Positions 28,467 to 40,179 of a stretch of DNA of 40,179 nt are shown piece by piece; position 1 is the first letter of the stretch; the number at the start of each line of letters is the position of its first letter. The stretch spans positions 1 through 40,179 of the IMG/VR virus record IMGVR_UViG_3300025617_000048; one strand, given 5' to 3'. A model generated the notes under the pieces. It did not search any database. It had not been told where the DNA came from and was given only the letters and a program-made list of their open reading frames with translations. This DNA comes from a virus. The position numbers and the translations under genes are program-made.

Positions 28467-31400
28467 ATGCCAATAATTGGAGATTTAAGAGTATCTGGTT
28501 CTTTAGAGGTCTCAGGATCTCTAACATTATCAGGATCAGCATCGCTAACAGGATCATTTAAAGGTGATGGTTCTCAACTAACAGGTATTACAGGATCTTG
28601 GGATGGATATCTCACAGGTGATTCCTTTATTACGGGTTCTGTTAATGTAACGGGATCGGTAACCGCATCTTTCTTCTCTGGAGACGGATCAGGACTAACC
28701 AACGTAACAGGTAATTGGGACGGTATTCACACAGGATCAGCTTCTATTTCAGGTTCATTAGAAATCAATGGACCGGTATCTCAAATTGGATTAGGTTCTA
28801 GTACATATTTTGGATATAGAGCCGGTGAAAACGACGATAAAACTAATAACTATAATACAGCATTTGGTGATAGTGCTTTTAGAGATAATACCACCGGAAT
28901 ACAGAACACAGCTGTAGGTTTTGAGTCACTAAAACAGAATGATAGTGGCTCAGGAAATACTGCTTTAGGAGCTTTTACTCTTACCAATAACCTAGGAGGA
29001 TTTAATACTGCTGTAGGAAATGCAGCATTAAATACTGATAACTCAGGTGATTACAATGTAGCTATTGGTAATTCTACTCTATTTTCTAATAGTACCGGAG
29101 ATAAGAACACAGGTTTAGGTAGTTTTACTTTATTCTATAATCAAGAAGGGCAAAATAATACTGCTATAGGGTACGGTGCTGGATATAATATAACCGGTAG
29201 TTCCAATAGTAACGTATTCATAGGATATAATGCAGGACCTAACATAGGTTCAACTATATCAAATAAATTATACATAAGTAATAATAGCGGTAGTGCTTTA
29301 ATTTATGGAGATTTTTATACTTCTCAAGTAGAATTTGCCGGAGGAGTTACTGCATCTTCTTTTACAGGTTCTTACTACGGTGATGGTTCTAATTTGACAG
29401 GAGTAGAATGGGATGGCACAAGAGACGGAGATGCTGAGATAACTGGTTCGTTAATTATAACAAATAATTTAACAGTTGACGGTAGAGTCACAGCCCAAGA
29501 ATTTCATACAGAAATAGTATCTTCTAGTATAATACAAGAATCAGGTTCAACTAAATTTGGTGATTCACTAGATGACTTACATCAATTTACAGGTAGTCTA
29601 GATATATCAGGATCTCTAATAATTGATAAAGTATACGAACAACCATCAGAAAATACGCTACTAGTTATAAATGGAAACGGATTAGTAGGTTATAGAGAAT
29701 TTGCAATAACATCAGGTACTTCTGGAACAGATGGTACAAGCGGAACAGACGGTACATCTGGTTCTTCAGGAACAAGTGGTGTTAGCGGCTCTTCAGGATC
29801 ATCAGGATCTTCAGGTACTTCAGGATCTTCAGGATCTTCAGGTATAGACGGTACATCTGGTTCTTCAGGAACTAGCGGAGTGGATGGTAATCCAGGTACT
29901 TCAGGATCTTCAGGGTCTTCAGGTACAGATGGTACATCTGGTTCTTCAGGTACTAGCGGGGTAGATGGTGCACCAGGTACTTCCGGGTCGTCAGGTACAT
30001 CCGGTACATCAGGATCATCAGGATCTTCAGGTACATCAGGATCTTCAGGTACATCAGGATCTTCAGGTACAGATGGAACTAGCGGTACAGACGGTACATC
30101 TGGGACTGATGGTACATCAGGATCTTCAGGTACTAGCGGTATTGATGGTAATCCGGGTACTTCTGGATCTTCAGGTATAAGCGGTACTTCCGGTTCATCA
30201 GGTACTTCAGGTACTAGCGGTTCATCAGGTACTTCAGGCTCATCAGGTTCATCAGGTACAGATGGAACTAGCGGTACTGATGGTACATCTGGAACAGACG
30301 GTAGTTCAGGCACGTCGGGTTCTAGCGGCTCTTCTGGAACAGATGGTACTTCAGGTAGTTCTGGCTCTAGCGGGTCAGATGGTACATCAGGTTCTAGTGG
30401 TACATCAGGAGTAGATGGTACCTCAGGCTCCTCAGGAACAAGCGGTGTAGATGGAACTAGTGGATCTAGCGGTAGTTCTGGAGCAGACGGTACTTCAGGT
30501 AGTTCTGGTTCTAGTGGAGCAGACGGTACTTCAGGTTCTAGTGGTACTTCTGGTAGTTCCGGTACTTCGGGAACTCTTACATTAACCGGTACTACTGATA
30601 ACGGAGTAATTACACTCAATGGATCAGCTCCAAATGCTACTGTTGAATCAGGATTGACATACGATGGAACAGAGCTTAACGTAATAGGTAATCTATCAGT
30701 AAGCGGTACAGGTTCGTTTGCACATATTGAATCCATAACCGGTTCAGCAAAAATAATTGGGGATAACTATATTATATTAAATGCTAATACTCCTGCCGAA
30801 AGATACTCAGGAATTAGAGTATTTGATTCTGGATCATTAAATGAAACAGGTTCTCTAGAATATGACTCAGTAGCTAACCACTGGTTTTACGAATCAGCAA
30901 ACGAAGGATATGCATCAGTAATACTAGCAGGTCCTAAAGCATCTAGAGGTTCTCTAACCCTACCAACATCTGGTTCATTAGTAGTAGCTGACGGTAATCA
31001 CTTAAATACTTCAAATGTAAGCGATCTAAACGGAGTTGTAACAGTAGCAACCCGTACAAATATACAAGGATCTATAACTGGATCTGCAATTAATTTAACT
31101 AGTTTACCTGCTATAGCTGATAATACTGTTTTGGTAATAGATGAAAATGGAAATGTAGGAACAAAAGAATCTGCAGCATCATCAGGTACATCTGGTAGTT
31201 CAGGATCTTCCGGTTCAGATGGTACAAGCGGTTCAAGCGGTTCAAGCGGTACATCTGGTAGTTCAGGATCTTCCGGTTCAGATGGTACAAGCGGGTCCTC
31301 TGGATCTTCTGGTTTAGACGGAACAAATGGCTCTAGCGGAAGTAGTGGTTCAGATGGTACAAGCGGGTCCTCTGGATCTTCTGGTTCAGACGGAGATCCC

Positions 31401-33479
31401 GGTACTTCAGGTTCATCAGGATCTTCCGGTACTTCAGGATCTTCAGGATCTTCAGGTAATTCCGGTACTTCAGGTTCATCAGGATCTTCCGGTACTTCAG
31501 GTTCATCAGGATCTTCAGGTAATTCCGGTACTTCAGGCTCCTCAGGTACATCAGGATCTTCAGGATCTTCAGGTAATTCCGGTACATCAGGTTCTTCCGG
31601 TACATCAGGATCTTCAGGATCTTCAGGTAATTCCGGTACATCAGGTTCTTCAGGATCTAGCGGAGAAGATGGTAATCCAGGTACATCAGGATCTTCCGGT
31701 TCAAGTGGAGAAGATGGTAATCCAGGTACATCAGGTTCATCAGGATCTTCAGGTGATTCAGGAACTAGTGGCTCTTCAGGATCTAGCGGAGAAGATGGTA
31801 ATCCAGGTACTTCAGGTTCATCAGGATCTTCAGGTAATTCCGGTACTTCAGGTTCATCAGGATCTTCAGGTGATTCAGGAACTAGCGGTAGCTCAGGTAA
31901 TTCTGGTACGTCAGGATCTTCCGGTACTAGTGGAATTATACCTCTAGCAACAGATGGAAATAATAGAGTTATAACCTCAGACGGAGACGGAACAGGAACA
32001 GCAGAAGCTAACCTAACATTTGACGGCAATACCTTAGTAGTTAATTGTAATATGACTGTAGGACCTTCACATATAAACACAGGATTTGCAAGTGTTATTG
32101 CTGGGGGAGATGACAACTCTATTACTTCAGCATGTAGCTTTATTGGAGGAGGTAGAAACAACTCTGTAGATCACCAATTTGATGCAATAATAGGTGGATA
32201 TGGCAATACTATATCAAACAGTACGACTGGTTATTCAAATACCGGACACAGTGTAATATTAGGTGGGTGTAATAATTTAATAGATGGTACAAGAGGGTAC
32301 AATCTTATAGGCGGTGGATACGATAATGTCATAACAGGTTCATTTAATGGTTGTGATAACTATGTAAATATTATTTTTGGACGATGTAACACAATCGATG
32401 CAGATGATAAAAATACTATATCAGGTGGGGCAAATAATACCATTTATGGGAATTTTGGAAATGCTTCTATTGGAGGTGGAATTGATAACTGCATTACAGC
32501 TAATGTCGCTACTATAGCCGGAGGGACTGCAAATACAGGTTCAGGAGCTTGTTCTTTTATTGGAGGCGGATGTAGTAACGTTGCTAGTGGTGGTAGATCT
32601 ACTATAGGTGGCGGATTTAATAACGCTGCAGTAGGTATCTTATCTACTGTAGGTGGCGGTGGTGGAAATACAGCAGGTTTAACAGCTACCATAGCAGGAG
32701 GAGATTTTAATTCCGCTGCCGGACAGAGTTCTTTTGTAGGTGGAGGAGTTACTAACAGCGCAAGCGGAAATAAGTCAACTATTGGAGGTGGAGGTGCAAA
32801 CCTCGCTTCAGCATTTGCAAGTACAGTAGCAGGAGGTTGTTGCAATACCGCTAGTGGAGGATTTGCAAGTACAGTAGTAGGAGGTTGTTGCAATACTGCT
32901 AGTGGAGCATGTTCTTTCATTGGAGGAGGACGGAGTAATACTGCTGATACTTGTTTTAGTGCAATATTGGGAGGAAATTATAATAACACTAACTCTATAA
33001 TATGTACTTTTATAGTAGGTAACTGTATTACAGCATTAAGCCCTAACACAACTTATGTAAATAACTTATCTTACGATGGATTTACGTTATATAACGGTGA
33101 TTCAGGTGGAGAAATAGTTTACTACGGCTCTTTTGATGCAACAAACGGTGCAATTGCTGCTGGAGATGTAATTATAGCACGATCTGCTTTAGGGTCAACA
33201 CAATGGCAGAGAGGGGAAAATAATGCAGACTTGACAGCTACTGGACAAGCCGGTGTTGCTCTAGGGACTACACCAGGTGATGGAATCCTATTGAAAGGAT
33301 TTATCAACAATACAACCTACGGAGCATGGGGAGGACAGAAATTATACCTATCCAGTACAGCTGGCGATTTTACAACTTCATTACCTTCTGGAGCAGGAAC
33401 TTATGTTAGAATACTTGGATACGGAGTAGAAAACGATTTAATATATTTTGATCCTGATAAGACTTGGGTAGAATTATAA
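28467..33479 (+). CDS. Giant tail fibre with collagen-like and head-like repeats
   Basis: 1670 residues. Order: fibre cassettes (1-105); adhesin-head-like repeats (about 110-270) with the usual AGP box; one WDG-GDAEITGS cassette; a Gly-X-Y collagen-like tract (417-702); a beta domain (about 703-906) with KIIGDNYIILNA; a second Gly-X-Y tract (907-1156); about 19 IGGG-NN-type repeats with unusual cysteines (about 1208-1510); and a C-terminal domain (about 1530-1670) rich in Gly and aromatic residues, ending KTWVEL. Collagen-like stalks with few prolines (only GNPG and GAPG units) suggest a long flexible trimer. Probably the main host-binding fibre. Confidence 0.85.
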   Translation: MPIIGDLRVSGSLEVSGSLTLSGSASLTGSFKGDGSQLTGITGSWDGYLTGDSFITGSVNVTGSVTASFFSGDGSGLTNVTGNWDGIHTGSASISGSLEINGPVSQIGLGSSTYFGYRAGENDDKTNNYNTAFGDSAFRDNTTGIQNTAVGFESLKQNDSGSGNTALGAFTLTNNLGGFNTAVGNAALNTDNSGDYNVAIGNSTLFSNSTGDKNTGLGSFTLFYNQEGQNNTAIGYGAGYNITGSSNSNVFIGYNAGPNIGSTISNKLYISNNSGSALIYGDFYTSQVEFAGGVTASSFTGSYYGDGSNLTGVEWDGTRDGDAEITGSLIITNNLTVDGRVTAQEFHTEIVSSSIIQESGSTKFGDSLDDLHQFTGSLDISGSLIIDKVYEQPSENTLLVINGNGLVGYREFAITSGTSGTDGTSGTDGTSGSSGTSGVSGSSGSSGSSGTSGSSGSSGIDGTSGSSGTSGVDGNPGTSGSSGSSGTDGTSGSSGTSGVDGAPGTSGSSGTSGTSGSSGSSGTSGSSGTSGSSGTDGTSGTDGTSGTDGTSGSSGTSGIDGNPGTSGSSGISGTSGSSGTSGTSGSSGTSGSSGSSGTDGTSGTDGTSGTDGSSGTSGSSGSSGTDGTSGSSGSSGSDGTSGSSGTSGVDGTSGSSGTSGVDGTSGSSGSSGADGTSGSSGSSGADGTSGSSGTSGSSGTSGTLTLTGTTDNGVITLNGSAPNATVESGLTYDGTELNVIGNLSVSGTGSFAHIESITGSAKIIGDNYIILNANTPAERYSGIRVFDSGSLNETGSLEYDSVANHWFYESANEGYASVILAGPKASRGSLTLPTSGSLVVADGNHLNTSNVSDLNGVVTVATRTNIQGSITGSAINLTSLPAIADNTVLVIDENGNVGTKESAASSGTSGSSGSSGSDGTSGSSGSSGTSGSSGSSGSDGTSGSSGSSGLDGTNGSSGSSGSDGTSGSSGSSGSDGDPGTSGSSGSSGTSGSSGSSGNSGTSGSSGSSGTSGSSGSSGNSGTSGSSGTSGSSGSSGNSGTSGSSGTSGSSGSSGNSGTSGSSGSSGEDGNPGTSGSSGSSGEDGNPGTSGSSGSSGDSGTSGSSGSSGEDGNPGTSGSSGSSGNSGTSGSSGSSGDSGTSGSSGNSGTSGSSGTSGIIPLATDGNNRVITSDGDGTGTAEANLTFDGNTLVVNCNMTVGPSHINTGFASVIAGGDDNSITSACSFIGGGRNNSVDHQFDAIIGGYGNTISNSTTGYSNTGHSVILGGCNNLIDGTRGYNLIGGGYDNVITGSFNGCDNYVNIIFGRCNTIDADDKNTISGGANNTIYGNFGNASIGGGIDNCITANVATIAGGTANTGSGACSFIGGGCSNVASGGRSTIGGGFNNAAVGILSTVGGGGGNTAGLTATIAGGDFNSAAGQSSFVGGGVTNSASGNKSTIGGGGANLASAFASTVAGGCCNTASGGFASTVVGGCCNTASGACSFIGGGRSNTADTCFSAILGGNYNNTNSIICTFIVGNCITALSPNTTYVNNLSYDGFTLYNGDSGGEIVYYGSFDATNGAIAAGDVIIARSALGSTQWQRGENNADLTATGQAGVALGTTPGDGILLKGFINNTTYGAWGGQKLYLSSTAGDFTTSLPSGAGTYVRILGYGVENDLIYFDPDKTWVEL
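29715..30572 (+). repeat. Collagen-like Gly-X-Y tract 1 (about 286 residues)
   Basis: Glycine is at every third residue without a break, mostly as GTS, GSS, GTD and GVD triplets; proline appears almost only in GNPG or GAPG units. At DNA level the 9-bp units (for example GGTACATCA and GGATCTTCA) are degenerate. Expected to be prone to slippage and length change. Confidence 0.9.
31185..31934 (+). repeat. Collagen-like Gly-X-Y tract 2 (about 250 residues)
   Basis: The same Gly-X-Y pattern as tract 1, here with more GNS, GDS and GEDGNPG units. Longer near-identical DNA blocks recur (GGTAATTCCGGTACTTCAG and similar, several times at about 31455-31860), which suggests recent internal duplications. 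Confidence 0.9.
32088..32990 (+). repeat. Adhesin-head-like IGGG-NN repeats, Cys-rich
   Basis: About 19 imperfect 12-20-residue repeats of the type (I/V)(G/A)GGxxN(N/T), as in trimeric adhesin heads. One pair at about 32815-32905 is nearly identical (FASTVAGGCCNTASGG then FASTVVGGCCNTASGA). Several units carry Cys-Cys or Cys-Ser pairs. Confidence 0.8.
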
Positions 33480-34202: not shown

Positions 34203-35078
34203 ATGACAGTTATATTTCACATTGAAGGTGGCTTGGGAAAACATATAATGGCTACCGCAATTCTTAAAGTAATTAAAAAACACCATCCTAACGATACAAT
34301 TCATGTTGTGTGTGCTTACCCGGATGTATTTAAACATAATCCAGCAGCTGATCAAGTACATCAAAATGGTCAACATGGAGCTTTTTATAGAAATTATATT
34401 AAAGGAAAAGAAAGTAAAACTAAAATATACTTTGCTGACCCTTACACACAATCGGACTTTATTCTTGAGCAAGATCATTTACTAAATATTTGGGCAAATC
34501 AATGGGGATTAGAGTATACAGGAGAAACTCCTCAAATATATTTAACGAAATCTGAAATAGAGTATTTTTCTCCTTTTTATAATACAGATAAGCCAATCCT
34601 AGCAATCCAAACTAACGGAGGACCTCAAAATCAGGGATTTAATTATTCCTGGACTAGAGATATCCCAGAGCCCGCTGTACTTAAAATTATCGAAGAATTT
34701 AAAGCAACTCACTCTATAGTTCATATAAAAAGAGAGGATCAAAAAAAATATCCAGATACTCTTCATGCTTTAGATGGATTTAGAAGTATAGCTATATTGC
34801 TACAGCTTGCAGATAAGAGGTTGTTAATTGATTCTTTTGCACAACACCTAGCTGCAGCATATCAATTATCTTCTACAGTCTGCTGGGTTACAACTAAACC
34901 GGAGGTATATGGCTACGAAATGCACGATAATATTAAAGCTAATGATTTTACTCTATCGGTAGATTTTCTTAATAACCTATATCAACCATTTGGATTATCT
35001 CAAGATATCACAACATGTCCTTATCAAAAACTAGAGGATGTATTTGATGTAGATAAAATAATTAAATCTCTAAAATAA
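34203..35078 (+). CDS. Glycosyltransferase-like protein (GT-B, family 9 type)
   Basis: 291 residues. The N-terminal glycine loop HIEGGLGKHIMATAILKVI resembles the GGLGD loop of heptosyltransferase-like (GT9) enzymes. A second Rossmann-like half follows from about residue 125 (KPILAIQTNGG, SIVHIKRED) and ends with a nucleotide-site-like stretch (LLIDSFAQHLAAAYQLSSTVCW, core 219-238) that has the Asp-Ser-x-x-x-His pattern. It could glycosylate fibres, phage DNA or host surface sugars. The first gene of an operon that overlaps its neighbours; substrate unknown. Confidence 0.7.
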   Translation: MTVIFHIEGGLGKHIMATAILKVIKKHHPNDTIHVVCAYPDVFKHNPAADQVHQNGQHGAFYRNYIKGKESKTKIYFADPYTQSDFILEQDHLLNIWANQWGLEYTGETPQIYLTKSEIEYFSPFYNTDKPILAIQTNGGPQNQGFNYSWTRDIPEPAVLKIIEEFKATHSIVHIKREDQKKYPDTLHALDGFRSIAILLQLADKRLLIDSFAQHLAAAYQLSSTVCWVTTKPEVYGYEMHDNIKANDFTLSVDFLNNLYQPFGLSQDITTCPYQKLEDVFDVDKIIKSLK

Positions 35079-35563
35079 TGACCGACCCAACTTGGATTTA
35101 TAAAGGCACACCAGTAGTTTCGATAAAAGCAATGCCAGAGAATTCATACGGTTTTATTTATGAAGTCACCCATATTCCATCAGGTAGAAAATACTTAGGA
35201 AAAAAAGTACTTTACTTTGAACGTAATAAAAGATTAGGTAAAAGAGCTTTAGAAGCTTTAAGAGAAGAGAGAAAAGCTAAAGGTATTGGAGGTAGAACTC
35301 CATTAAAGCAAAAAGTAGTTACTGAATCAGATTGGAAGACATATTACGGTTCTCAAAAAGAGGTATTAGAATTAGTTAAAGAAGGAAATCAAAAGGATTT
35401 CAAAAGAGAAATATTACAATACGTACCAGATAAAAAACAATTAACTTATTATGAGTGTAAATACCTATTTATAAATGAGGTATTAGAGACCCGTAATAAT
35501 TACATTAACGATAATATCCTCGGTAAATTTTACAGAAAAGATTTTTTAGATGATAAAAATTAA
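35078..35563 (+). CDS. GIY-YIG nuclease-like protein (Seg type)
   Basis: 161 residues. The GIY-YIG core is recognisable as GFIYEVTHIPSGRKYLGKK (about 25-43), with a Lys/Arg-rich helix next, then SDWKTYYGSQ (about 87-96), REILQYV, and a final EcKYLF-type Glu followed by NNYINDNILGKF. This resembles the Seg/GIY-YIG nucleases of T4-like phages, which cut DNA and may home. The long insert rich in Lys/Arg likely contacts DNA. TAATG coupling to the glycosyltransferase gene. Confidence 0.8.
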   Translation: MTDPTWIYKGTPVVSIKAMPENSYGFIYEVTHIPSGRKYLGKKVLYFERNKRLGKRALEALREERKAKGIGGRTPLKQKVVTESDWKTYYGSQKEVLELVKEGNQKDFKREILQYVPDKKQLTYYECKYLFINEVLETRNNYINDNILGKFYRKDFLDDKN

Positions 35564-36336: not shown

Positions 36337-36683
36337 AATTAACAGACATACTACTCAACGAATACGGAGAGTTCAGACAGCAGGAAAACGAATTAGAGGC
36401 TAAAGTAAAATCTGCTCTTACTAAAGATTTCCATCTTTCAGTTTCAATAGGAGCTTATAGCGGAGGAAGACCTGAAGATGATCCTTTAAAAGATAAAGGG
36501 TTCGGTAGTTTATCGTTTATTGAAAAGGAAGATATTCCTGAAGATGAGTTTAATAAAGTAATTAATATTATTAATTCTAGCGGTTACGAAGTTGATGAAA
36601 AGCAATCAACTAGATTCTATGACTACGAGCCGGGTGAAAGAGACTATTACCCAAAAATTAAGTTTGGGTTTAAAATAAAATAA
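36333..36683 (+). CDS. Small protein of unknown function
   Basis: 116 residues. It starts with a short amphipathic helix (MKLTDILLNEY), a beginning shared with the following kinase-like gene (MKLSKIILEG) and the 9637 gene. A charged helix and then alternating strands follow, with a Tyr/Pro-rich end (YDYEPGERDYYPKIKFGF). The shared start may be a docking helix. ATGA and TAATG overlaps tie it to both neighbours. Family not recognised. Confidence 0.6.
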   Translation: MKLTDILLNEYGEFRQQENELEAKVKSALTKDFHLSVSIGAYSGGRPEDDPLKDKGFGSLSFIEKEDIPEDEFNKVINIINSSGYEVDEKQSTRFYDYEPGERDYYPKIKFGFKIK

Positions 36684-37114
36684 TGAAACTATCAAAAATC
36701 ATATTAGAGGGACCACTTCAATATGATCCTGATTTTAATCGAGAAATTGATAAAATACAAGATCAGGGAGGAAAATATTTAGGTTCTGGAGATTACGGTT
36801 CTGTTTACCTCTTAAACGGTAAAGCTGTGAAAGTAACAACAGACGAAATAGAACTAGATCACGCAGAGATACTTAAAGGTAAAAAAACAAATAATTTTGT
36901 CTATATCTACGATGTTAAAAGACTAGGAGGTAAATTAGGCATCATTACAATGGAGGTTATGGGAGAATATAGAGGTGATATACCAGAAGAATTTATGGAT
37001 GCTCTAGAAAAAGAAGCTGAAAATTACGGTATTGACCCAGAAGAATTAGATGTAAGACCAGACAACTTCATGGTACATCCAAAATCAGGAAAAATAAAAA
37101 TGACCGACGTATAG
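36683..37114 (+). CDS. Minimal protein-kinase-fold protein
   Basis: 143 residues, about half a normal kinase domain. In order: docking-type helix (MKLSKIILEG); glycine-rich loop G34-S-G-D-Y-G39 with Val41; beta-3 lysine K50 in AVKV; possible alpha-C glutamates E57/E62; hinge-like MEVM 90-93; catalytic loop D123-V-R-P-D-N128, matching D-L-K-P-E-N; and a magnesium-site Asp142 in MTDV, where the protein stops. The HRD His and Arg are replaced by Glu and Leu, and the activation segment and most of the C-lobe are missing. It may be a compact kinase or a nucleotide-binding pseudokinase. Last gene before the primase promoter. Confidence 0.7.
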   Translation: MKLSKIILEGPLQYDPDFNREIDKIQDQGGKYLGSGDYGSVYLLNGKAVKVTTDEIELDHAEILKGKKTNNFVYIYDVKRLGGKLGIITMEVMGEYRGDIPEEFMDALEKEAENYGIDPEELDVRPDNFMVHPKSGKIKMTDV

Positions 37115-37162: not shown

Positions 37163-38089
37163 ATGGATTATACCTTTTTATTAGGTTCAGTAGAGAATGT
37201 ATTAGGAAAAAGTCATAAGAGAGCTAGAGATAACTATGCTTTTCATTGTCCTTTTTGTAATCACCGTAAACCCAAGTTAGAAATCAATATGGTTACTAAC
37301 GATGAAGGTAAAAACTACTGGGAATGCTGGGTTTGTAAAACTAGAGGTCAATCTATATATTCACTTATTAAGCAATTAAAATTACCTAAAAGCGAAGCTC
37401 AAGAAATTCTTAAGTATGTAAAAAAAGGTAAGAAATACGAATATAAGAATGAAGAAATAGTAGAACTTCCTGAAGAGTATCAATCACTCTACTCAGCCTC
37501 TAGAACTTCTATTATTGCTAACAAAGTAAGAAAATACCTATATGAACGAGGACTTACCGACAATGATTTTATTAAATATAATGTTGGATACACAACAAGT
37601 GGAGACTATGGCGGAAGAATCATTATCCCTAGCTATTCTGAGTCCAATAGGCTCAATTATTTTGTTGGAAGAACTTATGAAGGAGCATATTTTAAATATA
37701 AAAATCCCGAAGCTTCCAAAGACATAATATTTTTTGAGAATTTAATTAATTGGAATCAACCGATTATTTTATGTGAAGGAGCATTTGATGCTATGGCTAT
37801 TCGTAGAAACGCAGTTCCTATATTAGGAAAAAGCTTATCTCCTTCCTTAATGAAAAAAATTATTACTTCTAAAGTAGAGGATATATATATTGCTTTAGAT
37901 GAAGATGCACAAAAAGATGCATTAGAAATAGCAGAGAATTTATTAAATCTAGGTAAGAGGGTCTTCCTAGTAGACTTACAACAAAAAGATCCTAGCGAGA
38001 TGGGCTTTCAAGCCTTTACTCGTCTTATACAATCAGCAGAAGAATTAGACCTATCCGGTTTAATGCTGCATAAAATTAACGCCTTATGA
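37163..38089 (+). CDS. 61: DNA primase (DnaG/gp61 type)
   Basis: 308 residues. An N-terminal zinc-binding domain with Cys29-x2-Cys32 and Cys55-x2-Cys58 (plus His34) is followed by a TOPRIM domain: Glu205 in CEGAFDAM and the Asp246-x-Asp248 pair in ALDEDAQ. It makes RNA primers for lagging-strand DNA synthesis together with the phage helicase. The length is close to T4 gp61. The ATG at 37163 is used because the one at 37159 is out of frame. It has its own promoter and overlaps the nuclease gene by 4 nt. Confidence 0.9.
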   Translation: MDYTFLLGSVENVLGKSHKRARDNYAFHCPFCNHRKPKLEINMVTNDEGKNYWECWVCKTRGQSIYSLIKQLKLPKSEAQEILKYVKKGKKYEYKNEEIVELPEEYQSLYSASRTSIIANKVRKYLYERGLTDNDFIKYNVGYTTSGDYGGRIIIPSYSESNRLNYFVGRTYEGAYFKYKNPEASKDIIFFENLINWNQPIILCEGAFDAMAIRRNAVPILGKSLSPSLMKKIITSKVEDIYIALDEDAQKDALEIAENLLNLGKRVFLVDLQQKDPSEMGFQAFTRLIQSAEELDLSGLMLHKINAL

Positions 38090-38868
38090 TTCGTCAAGGT
38101 ACAAATATTTTAAAAGAAAATTCAAAAAATAGATTAGATTTTAAACCTGATCTTAAACAAATTAATTTTTTAGACCGCAGGGTTTACAAAAGAGATGAAG
38201 GAGTATATTATCCCTCAGTCACTACTATCCTTCAATATATGCCAAAGAATAAATTCTTTGATAACTGGTTAAAAGATGTAGGGCATAATGCTGATCTTAT
38301 TATGAGAAAAGCAGGTAAAGAAGGAACCCAGGTACATGAAGCAGCAGAAGCTCTTGTAAAAGGTGAAGAAGTAAACTGGATGGATGATTACGGCAATGCT
38401 AAGTATTCTCAAATAGTATGGGAGATGATTTTAAAGTTCTATGATTTTTGGTCTACTCATAAGCCTGAATTAATCTCCACTGAAGAATTTGTATTTTCGG
38501 ATAAATTTAAATATGCAGGTACTGCTGACTTAGTTGTAAAAATGGATGGTGAAACCTGGCTTTTAGATTTAAAGACTTCTAATTCACTACATAGAGCTTA
38601 TAATCTACAACTTTCAGCATACGCTAAAGCTATAGAGGAAGTTAAAGGTATAAAAATAGACAGAACCGGCATCATATGGTTGAAATCCAGTACTAGATCT
38701 GCTTCTAAAAAGAAAGGAGTATACCAAGGAAAAGGATGGCAGATAAAAGTTATAGATGAGATAGATTATAATTTTGATTTATTTAAAACAATATATAAAC
38801 TATATTCATTAGAAAACCCAGTTACGGAACCTATTTATAAAAAGTACCCAACTAGTTTAAAATTATGA
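38086..38868 (+). CDS. PD-(D/E)XK nuclease (RecB/Cas4-like exonuclease)
   Basis: 260 residues. The core of the PD-(D/E)XK fold is clear: YAGTADLVVKM with Asp148, then WLLDLKTSNS with Asp161-x-Lys163, then the RecB-type motif YNLQLSAYAKAIEE with Gln and Tyr. The N-terminal part has VYYPSVTTILQYMPK, typical of phage members. It is probably an exonuclease in recombination or DNA processing, next to the primase. ATGA overlaps at both ends put it in the primase operon. Confidence 0.85.
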   Translation: MIRQGTNILKENSKNRLDFKPDLKQINFLDRRVYKRDEGVYYPSVTTILQYMPKNKFFDNWLKDVGHNADLIMRKAGKEGTQVHEAAEALVKGEEVNWMDDYGNAKYSQIVWEMILKFYDFWSTHKPELISTEEFVFSDKFKYAGTADLVVKMDGETWLLDLKTSNSLHRAYNLQLSAYAKAIEEVKGIKIDRTGIIWLKSSTRSASKKKGVYQGKGWQIKVIDEIDYNFDLFKTIYKLYSLENPVTEPIYKKYPTSLKL

Positions 38869-39533
38869 AAAAAATACTAATAGTACTTTCTTTTACCTTA
38901 CTTAGTTCATGTGGAGTTGAATGGCAATATGTTACTTTAAATCATGCTGCTCAAGTAGATGGAATCTATAGATCTAGCGATTATAGAGTGAATACTATTA
39001 ATTATAATTTTTCTTTATATAGCTTTAATCAACCTTTTATTTGGAGTGATCCTATGTTTGGTAATAGGTATAATTTCTACAATCCCTACTTAGGTTATAG
39101 TTCATATTGGAACAGATGGAATTGGTACTATCCAAATAATAACTGGTATTGGAATAGATGGAATAGACCCTATAGGTATTGGAACTACTATAACCCGTAC
39201 TTTAGAAGAACTAATGTAAATTATGTAAATGGATATAGAGCAAGAACCTCATCTATTTATAATAATAGAACAAATATATTAAATTTAAATAGAAATGATC
39301 AAACTACTAGATCTAATAAAAGAACAAAACGAGTCAAAACCCAAAGCTATAGTAATGGCAGGAGGAGCAGGAGCAGGCAAGTCATTCCTAATCAATCAAC
39401 TAGGACTAATCAGCCTACCAATGTTCAACCCAGACAAGTACGTGGAAGATCCAGATCATCCGTACCACAACAATCTGTCCGCAGCCAGCGGCCAAGTAGA
39501 CAAAGACGTAGCAGCAGCAGCGGAAACAGGTAA
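38865..39533 (+). CDS. Tyr/Trp/Asn-rich lipoprotein with overprinted C-terminus
   Basis: 222 residues. Lipoprotein signal MKKILIVLSFTLLSSC with lipidated Cys16. Residues about 50-115 are extremely rich in Tyr, Trp, Asn and Arg (YWNRWNWYYPNNNWYWNRWN); a similar composition occurs in uncharacterised flavobacterial lipoproteins, so a host origin is likely. From about residue 144 the protein becomes Arg/Ser/Gln/Thr-rich and hydrophilic; this part is read from the same 239 bp as the start of the P-loop kinase gene in another frame. The C-terminus could bind nucleic acid, wall or capsule polymers. Function unknown; an envelope location is predicted. Confidence 0.75.
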   Translation: MKKILIVLSFTLLSSCGVEWQYVTLNHAAQVDGIYRSSDYRVNTINYNFSLYSFNQPFIWSDPMFGNRYNFYNPYLGYSSYWNRWNWYYPNNNWYWNRWNRPYRYWNYYNPYFRRTNVNYVNGYRARTSSIYNNRTNILNLNRNDQTTRSNKRTKRVKTQSYSNGRRSRSRQVIPNQSTRTNQPTNVQPRQVRGRSRSSVPQQSVRSQRPSRQRRSSSSGNR

Positions 39534-40179
39534 ATCTCTTATTTGGGATACTACAGCATCTAATCCTTCTAAAGTACAAAACTTATTAGATAAAGGATAC
39601 GATGTATACATGATTATGGTATACACTCATCCTATGATTGCTTTCATAAATAATTTTTCTAGACAGAGAAGAGTACCTAAATCAGCTGTATTCTCTACTT
39701 GGCGTAATGTTTATGATTTAATTGGACGTTATAAAGATATGCTTGGAGATAATTTTTCTTTATCTATCAACATGCGAAATAATAAGTTCGCAAAAGAGGT
39801 AGAAGGATTTAATAAAGCAGCAGAGAGAGGAGTAGAAGGAGTTACTAATTACTTAGAAGACTATATGGAGCAAAACGGAGGCAAAGATGCTTTTGGTTCT
39901 ACATTTAGAACAGACTACGAACTTCCATCAGAAGAAGCTATCCAGGCGTTTAATCAAGAAATGACAGATATAGAATTCGATAGAGAGAATGAATCTATGG
40001 TAAAAGAGCTTAAAAAATACTGGGTTAAATTTTATGATAAAAACGGCACTGGTCCTGGTGATGTAAAAATGAGAAGTAAAATAGCTACTATTGAAAGAAG
40101 ATATAATAGTAATAAAGAAAGAGAAAGACAGGTCTTAACAGACATTGCAGATATGTTGGTTGATAGAGAGTTTCAAGAA
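39295..40179 (+). CDS. Zeta-toxin-like P-loop kinase (cut by window end)
   Basis: 295 codons open to the window edge. Walker A motif G23-G-A-G-A-G-K-S30 follows a beta strand (KAIVMAGG). Further zeta-toxin/polynucleotide-kinase-like features: FNPDKYVEDPDHP, a helix SAASGQVDKDVAAAAETG, LIWDTTASNPSKV (about 82-94) and a later Arg-rich lid (FSRQRRVPKS). ATG 39295 is preferred because starting at Met21 would delete the strand before the P-loop. The first 239 bp are shared with the lipoprotein frame. It may phosphorylate nucleotides, sugars or RNA ends; as a zeta relative it could also be a toxin, but the substrate is unknown. Confidence 0.8.
   Translation, partial: MIKLLDLIKEQNESKPKAIVMAGGAGAGKSFLINQLGLISLPMFNPDKYVEDPDHPYHNNLSAASGQVDKDVAAAAETGKSLIWDTTASNPSKVQNLLDKGYDVYMIMVYTHPMIAFINNFSRQRRVPKSAVFSTWRNVYDLIGRYKDMLGDNFSLSINMRNNKFAKEVEGFNKAAERGVEGVTNYLEDYMEQNGGKDAFGSTFRTDYELPSEEAIQAFNQEMTDIEFDRENESMVKELKKYWVKFYDKNGTGPGDVKMRSKIATIERRYNSNKERERQVLTDIADMLVDREFQE

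Follow-up and report, generated by a model that had tools for sequence, protein, structure and literature searches.

The window analysed here is the whole of a 40,179-base virus record (IMGVR_UViG_3300025617_000048), towards the end of which the gene of a putative lipoprotein runs into that of a predicted Zeta-toxin-family P-loop kinase, read in another frame (Table 1). Our recount of the two open reading frames (ORFs) agrees with an earlier note on this DNA in that both are open over 239 bp; the remaining same-strand gene overlaps in the window measure 1–26 nt. Guanine-cytosine (GC) content reaches 45% in the overlap, compared with 28% in the head of the lipoprotein gene and 32% in the kinase gene beyond the overlap. 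As the note had counted, T is the third base of 7 kinase codons among the first 78 and of 22 among the next 47, and the change point is codon 79 (GGT, 39529–39531), whose T opens the lipoprotein TAA. Its description of the leucine codons was right about the lack of TTA in the overlap but not about the count, which is seven CTA and one CTG rather than eight and one; downstream of the overlap, Leu is encoded by six TTA, four CTT and one TTG. The 239-bp open overlap is far beyond chance: given the codon usage of the kinase beyond the overlap, a tail frame without stops has a probability of 2.2e-7 in the window, and of 4e-8 to 2e-5 in each of 21 other divergent relatives.

Table 1. Features of the overlapping gene pair and its upstream neighbour, in window positions.
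Feature	Position	Strand	Remark
PD-(D/E)XK exonuclease (PHROG 298)	38086..38868	+	conserved upstream neighbour
Lipoprotein coding sequence, 222 residues, stop TAA 39531–39533	38865..39533	+	homologues share architecture
Signal peptide and lipobox (MKKILIVLSFTLLSSC)	38865..38912	+	Cys16 invariant in 17 aligned lipoproteins
A-rich, weakly structured kinase start region without Shine-Dalgarno sequence, inside the lipoprotein gene	39275..39294	+	
Zeta-toxin-family P-loop kinase coding sequence, cut by the window end	39295..40179	+	PF06414
Overprinted lipoprotein tail, 78 codons (DQTTRSNK...SSSSGNR), kinase +2 frame	39297..39530	+	
Walker A (GGAGAGKS), within the overlap	39361..39384	+	invariant residues in 16 aligned kinases
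Conserved WDTTA motif, shortly 3' of the lipoprotein stop	39544..39558	+	

The lipoprotein carries the N-terminal signal and lipobox cysteine by which bacterial lipoproteins are recognized, the cysteine being invariant among its relatives, followed by an aromatic- and Asn-rich middle part and a low-complexity tail. The LPAM_1 lipid-attachment model matched weakly in 4 of 12 relatives (best E = 0.16). Only the signal helix was confident in the structure model (predicted local distance difference test score, pLDDT, 46), and the protein is predicted to be disordered outside this helix. No family in Pfam, PHROG or NCBIfam scored above cut-off and no isolated phage matched, while a search for host homologues with a narrow profile returned one relative, whose metagenome-assembled contig appears to be viral.

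The kinase resembles the zeta toxin family in profile score (PF06414, E = 2.9e-10, 40.4 bits for a gathering cut-off of 22.3), in its Walker A P-loop and in its fold. Its full length in relatives is about 307–314 residues, and G23, G24, G26, G28 and K29 of Walker A are invariant among 16 aligned kinases. The structure model is confident (pLDDT 86) and has polynucleotide kinase (PNK), zeta and PezT as neighbours in the PDB, with low TM-scores; searching PDB sequences with a profile of the kinase gave no match. The start codon is supported by two observations: 107 of 107 relatives share the ATG, and wherever the lipoprotein is present but the overlap absent, the upstream stop abuts this ATG. The start region is weakly structured (mean fold energy −1.4 versus −6.3 in internal windows) and in most genomes lacks a Shine-Dalgarno sequence, in overlapping and non-overlapping lineages alike. 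Since such sequences are reported to be generally absent in Bacteroidetes (PMC3155529), the kinase can presumably initiate independently within the lipoprotein gene.

To follow the overlap among relatives, 109 distinct kinases were collected from four scans of viral contigs. The +2-frame overlap with an upstream lipoprotein is present in 93 of them, in a family of marine phages, with a length of 203–254 nt, and is kept down to about 50% kinase identity; both frames are thus open and conserved across divergent relatives, as expected of a functional overlap. In aligned relatives the tail stops ahead of the WDTTA strand. The 16 kinases without overlap are of two kinds. In the first (L020-L025, L040, L103/L115, L223), the lipoprotein stops at the kinase ATG and has its own N/S/R/P-rich tail. 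In the second (L081-L090, L106, L188), there is no lipoprotein, and the exonuclease lies directly 5' of the kinase; the L090 contig begins just upstream of the kinase, and its state was taken from close relatives. Six non-overlapping relatives that were checked have 9–13 tail-frame stops each. A conserved kinase start combined with frequent stops in the lipoprotein frame, which the earlier note had named as speaking against its reading, thus occurs only in lineages without the overlap.

An unrooted tree built solely on the part of the kinase that the overlap does not touch requires eight changes of state, at least five of them on supported branches, with the non-overlapping kinases nested among overlapping ones. 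The overlap has been lost on several occasions. One case, L223, is judged to be a recent loss because it is nested in an overlapping clade and still shows the depressed T use of overlapping genomes (16% T in non-stop contexts). The lipoprotein N-termini of L223 and of the distant L040 are alike (MKKLLLTLTVLILISCSTFKLSTHNYDPIYGP / MRKLLLTLSILILIGCSTFKLSTHNYDPIYGP), a likeness that suggests horizontal replacement by a self-contained, non-overlapping module.

Codon choice in the kinase depends on what it does to the tail. In overlapping kinases, none of the 1,624 T-capable codons in stop-making contexts uses T, compared with 66% in the rest of the gene, in line with the proposal of the earlier note that T avoidance keeps stops out of the lipoprotein frame. 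The avoidance extends to T that would give Phe/Leu (6.5% in the overlap versus 50% in the rest of the kinase), Tyr (11% versus 67%) and Cys/Trp (5% versus 45%) in the tail, while T giving Ser is largely tolerated (39% versus 54%). At the same codons of non-overlapping genomes, T use for stop, Phe/Leu, Tyr, Cys/Trp and Ser is 55, 45, 54, 36 and 54%, respectively. In hydrophobic contexts, 88 of 91 overlapping genomes have a T use of less than 0.15, and 0 of 16 non-overlapping ones do. When the genomes were aligned on their own lipoprotein stops, T use rose from 2.3% (codons −5 to −2) to 66% (+1 to +4). Translation of the tail frame together with selection on it predicts both the dependence on context and the switch at each genome's own stop, and is the only explanation that we found for this avoidance.

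The same lipoprotein family was found away from the kinase by scanning with its N-terminal part, in other phage contigs (L253, L260, L262 and others) and on a metagenome-assembled contig (L236). These lipoproteins do not overlap a neighbour and encode their own tails, for example ...SSGGSSRGGNSRGRN. We compared the composition of 26 self-encoded tails (25 from lipoproteins located away from the kinase, and one from L267, which precedes a kinase without overlapping it) with that of 89 overlapped tails and of the untranslated +2 frame of non-overlapping kinases. In this order, hydrophobic residues (FLIVMWYC) make up 15.6, 13.3 and 27%, Ser 17.9, 17.7 and 16.9%, and Pro 9.0, 9.3 and 4.6%; net charge per residue is +0.145, +0.160 and +0.254, and hydropathy −1.48, −1.54 and −1.24. 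Apart from composition, overlapped tails have no evident similarity to the N/S/R/P/G-rich self-encoded ones, the Asn of the latter giving way to Gln, Arg and Gly. From these comparisons, the overlap thus appears to transfer the encoding of a required tail, cationic and disordered, to the synonymous positions of the kinase. The earlier suggestion that an Arg/Ser/Gln-rich tail arose by overprinting a conserved kinase start stands as regards overprinting. The richness in Arg, however, is mostly forced by the kinase protein, because the untranslated frame of non-overlapping relatives is richer still (21% versus 17% in overlapped tails).

Could the lipoprotein frame merely be kept free of stops, for instance so as to end far from the kinase start, with the amino acids of the tail irrelevant? 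Selection on individual tail residues is indeed not detectable, as such a reading would have it. It is nevertheless already contradicted by the avoidance of T for Phe/Leu, Tyr, Cys and Trp and far less for Ser. When kinases were simulated at normal codon usage, with the protein kept constant and tail stops barred, about 30% of tail residues were hydrophobic, against 9–19% in the real tails, and in 22 of 22 divergent overlapping sequences tail hydrophobicity lies about 4–6 standard deviations below the stop-free simulations. Pro and Gln exceed the simulations in most tails, and net charge, Pro and Gly are shifted from the values of the untranslated frame towards those of self-encoded tails. We regard the mere keeping open of the frame as improbable; these results support selection on the composition of the tail (no stops, few Phe/Leu/Tyr/Cys/Trp, more Pro/Gln/Gly) rather than on the identity of its residues.

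Regarding the age of the two frames, a codon-usage criterion is available (PMC8227390). Measured against the codon usage of the phage, the overlapped part of the kinase gives a correlation of 0.11, the tail one of 0.49 and the remainder of the kinase one of 0.97. Taken by itself, the tail's closer fit would favor an older tail, with the kinase N-terminus extended into the lipoprotein gene. We hold this to be very unlikely, because the kinase N-terminus holds the Walker A motif and is itself conserved in relatives without the lipoprotein, because overlapped and self-encoded tails share nothing evident beyond composition, and because the kinase follows phage usage closely as soon as the overlap ends. 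The kinase is thus strongly supported as the older frame, and the standard criterion would name the wrong one here. Least credible of all is that the bias reflects a nucleotide-level element (RNA structure or a binding site) or a foreign kinase 5' end acquired by horizontal transfer: the overlap does stand out in GC from its surroundings (about 30%), but the bias varies with the tail codon that arises together with the following kinase codon, stops where the lipoprotein frame of the individual genome stops, and has disappeared from relatives in which the kinase is retained without the overlap.

Synonymous variation of the older frame is reduced, as expected of a functional overlap and as the earlier note had anticipated: in close pairs it amounts to 0.79 (interval 0.68–0.92) of that in the rest of the kinase, and the corresponding ratio in non-overlapping lineages is 1.15 (0.89–1.45). 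The claim that both frames are under selection thus holds strongly for dual coding, and for the tail with respect to composition but not to residue identity.

Several points weigh against this interpretation. The synonymous reduction is modest and fades in more distant pairs (0.90, interval 0.78–1.02). An OLGenie-like analysis gave a tail dNN/dNS of about 1.2–1.4 (1.19, interval 0.81–1.85, in close pairs); a ratio below 1 in the newer frame would have been supportive, though a functional overlap does not require it, and none was obtained. Phylogeny-aware counting yields only five independent pairs (4.8 for, 0 against; median p 0.0625), and the tree, being unrooted, does not fix the deepest state.

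With these points included, we consider it very probable that this is a real terminal overlap in which a composition-selected, overprinted lipoprotein tail has replaced a self-encoded one. In the proposed mechanism, the lipoprotein would be exported and anchored by its lipid, and would need a hydrophilic, positive and flexible C-terminal tail whose composition matters but whose exact sequence does not, since self-encoded and overprinted tails converge and the ratio of non-synonymous to synonymous change (dN/dS) in the tail is near 1. As comparative sequence shows, its frame runs 203–254 nt into the kinase gene and supplies a disordered cationic tail of about 66–82 residues. With the kinase protein fixed and conserved, the phage tunes the third positions of kinase codons, which are the first positions of tail codons; excluding T there removes stops and Phe/Leu/Tyr/Cys/Trp from the tail. 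The kinase would initiate at its own A-rich, weakly structured site, independently of a Shine-Dalgarno sequence as in Bacteroidota. The overprinted tail may have taken over from a self-encoded N/S/R/P/G-rich one once the original stop was lost, and some lineages have later reverted to encoding the tail themselves or have dropped the lipoprotein altogether. A programmed frameshift was also considered and is not needed, as each frame has its own start.

In more general terms, we lean towards the view that a composition-defined disordered region can relocate between its own DNA and the synonymous positions of a neighbor, and back, with the neighbor's codons tuned to the same composition, its encoding being independent of sequence and interchangeable. 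The system is a clean natural experiment, in which about a hundred phages offer the same kinase with the overlap, without it or in the absence of the lipoprotein, and it separates stop avoidance from amino-acid selection. It provides comparative evidence that selection keeps the composition, not the sequence, of a disordered tail. It also shows that a real overlapped product can escape dN/dS-type tests when its composition alone is constrained, and that the common codon-usage rule for the older frame can mislead.

The arrangement recalls phage terminal overlaps such as phiX174 A/K and viral overprinting generally (PMC8227390); viral overlapping genes as a whole are enriched in Arg, Ser and Pro and depleted in T (PMC6195259). 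In contrast to these, only a low-complexity disordered tail is overlapped here, the overlap is kept down to about 50% kinase identity and has been lost repeatedly, the composition of the tail matches that of non-overlapping homologues, and the codon-usage genealogy misleads. A phage lipoprotein gene that overlaps its neighbor in another frame is also known from spanin pairs (Rz/Rz1; PMC6139136). A two-component spanin was rejected, as the partner is a P-loop kinase and not an inner-membrane i-spanin. The kinase shares the P-loop fold, Walker A and an above-cut-off profile score with the Zeta toxin / PezT / polynucleotide kinase family (PF06414). In contrast to zeta toxin systems, this predicted kinase belongs to a primase-exonuclease operon, where a nucleotidyltransferase-like gene follows it; no antitoxin gene was seen adjoining it, and no epsilon-like partner was noticed upstream.

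As for the role of the lipoprotein, we can only guess at a factor that is anchored in the envelope and works at the host surface or in the periplasm, in superinfection exclusion or lysis; equally speculatively, its cationic flexible tail might bind an anionic polymer of the cell envelope. Asn is the last residue of nearly all 26 self-encoded tails, and many overlapped ones finish with -QN, -KN or -RN (site 39525–39530 in the window), although Asn makes up only 7% of overlapped tails. This ending could serve as a C-terminal signal or could follow from where the kinase permits a stop.

The exonuclease (70% identity) and an uncharacterised ORF of the window point to Flavobacterium phage vB_FspM_immuto (Immutovirus) as the nearest isolated relative found. 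Primase and exonuclease stand in the same order in both, but the gene after the exonuclease in immuto is neither lipoprotein nor kinase, and neither of the two had a match to immuto in the isolated-phage collection. In relatives (for example L011, L018 and L040), a nucleotidyltransferase-like protein (MIALYPGAFKPPHRGHFEVV...) is encoded next after the kinase, usually with a 4-nt overlap with the kinase stop; the annotation of immuto lists a NadR-type NMN adenylyltransferase nearby. Elsewhere in the window, a short protein-kinase-like ORF (AVKVTTDEIELDHAEIL...HPKSGKIKMTDV) at 36683–37114 weakly matches phrog_15752, a family of phage protein kinases (E = 0.011). The ORF at 35078–35563 encodes a SegE-type GIY-YIG endonuclease (PF19835, E = 5.6e-28), and its best PHROG, labelled NAD synthetase, is probably a mislabelled family. 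Two minus-strand ORFs at 29690–30736 (348 residues) and 30998–32161 (387 residues) lie antisense inside a 1,670-residue ORF and are probably artefacts of codon bias.
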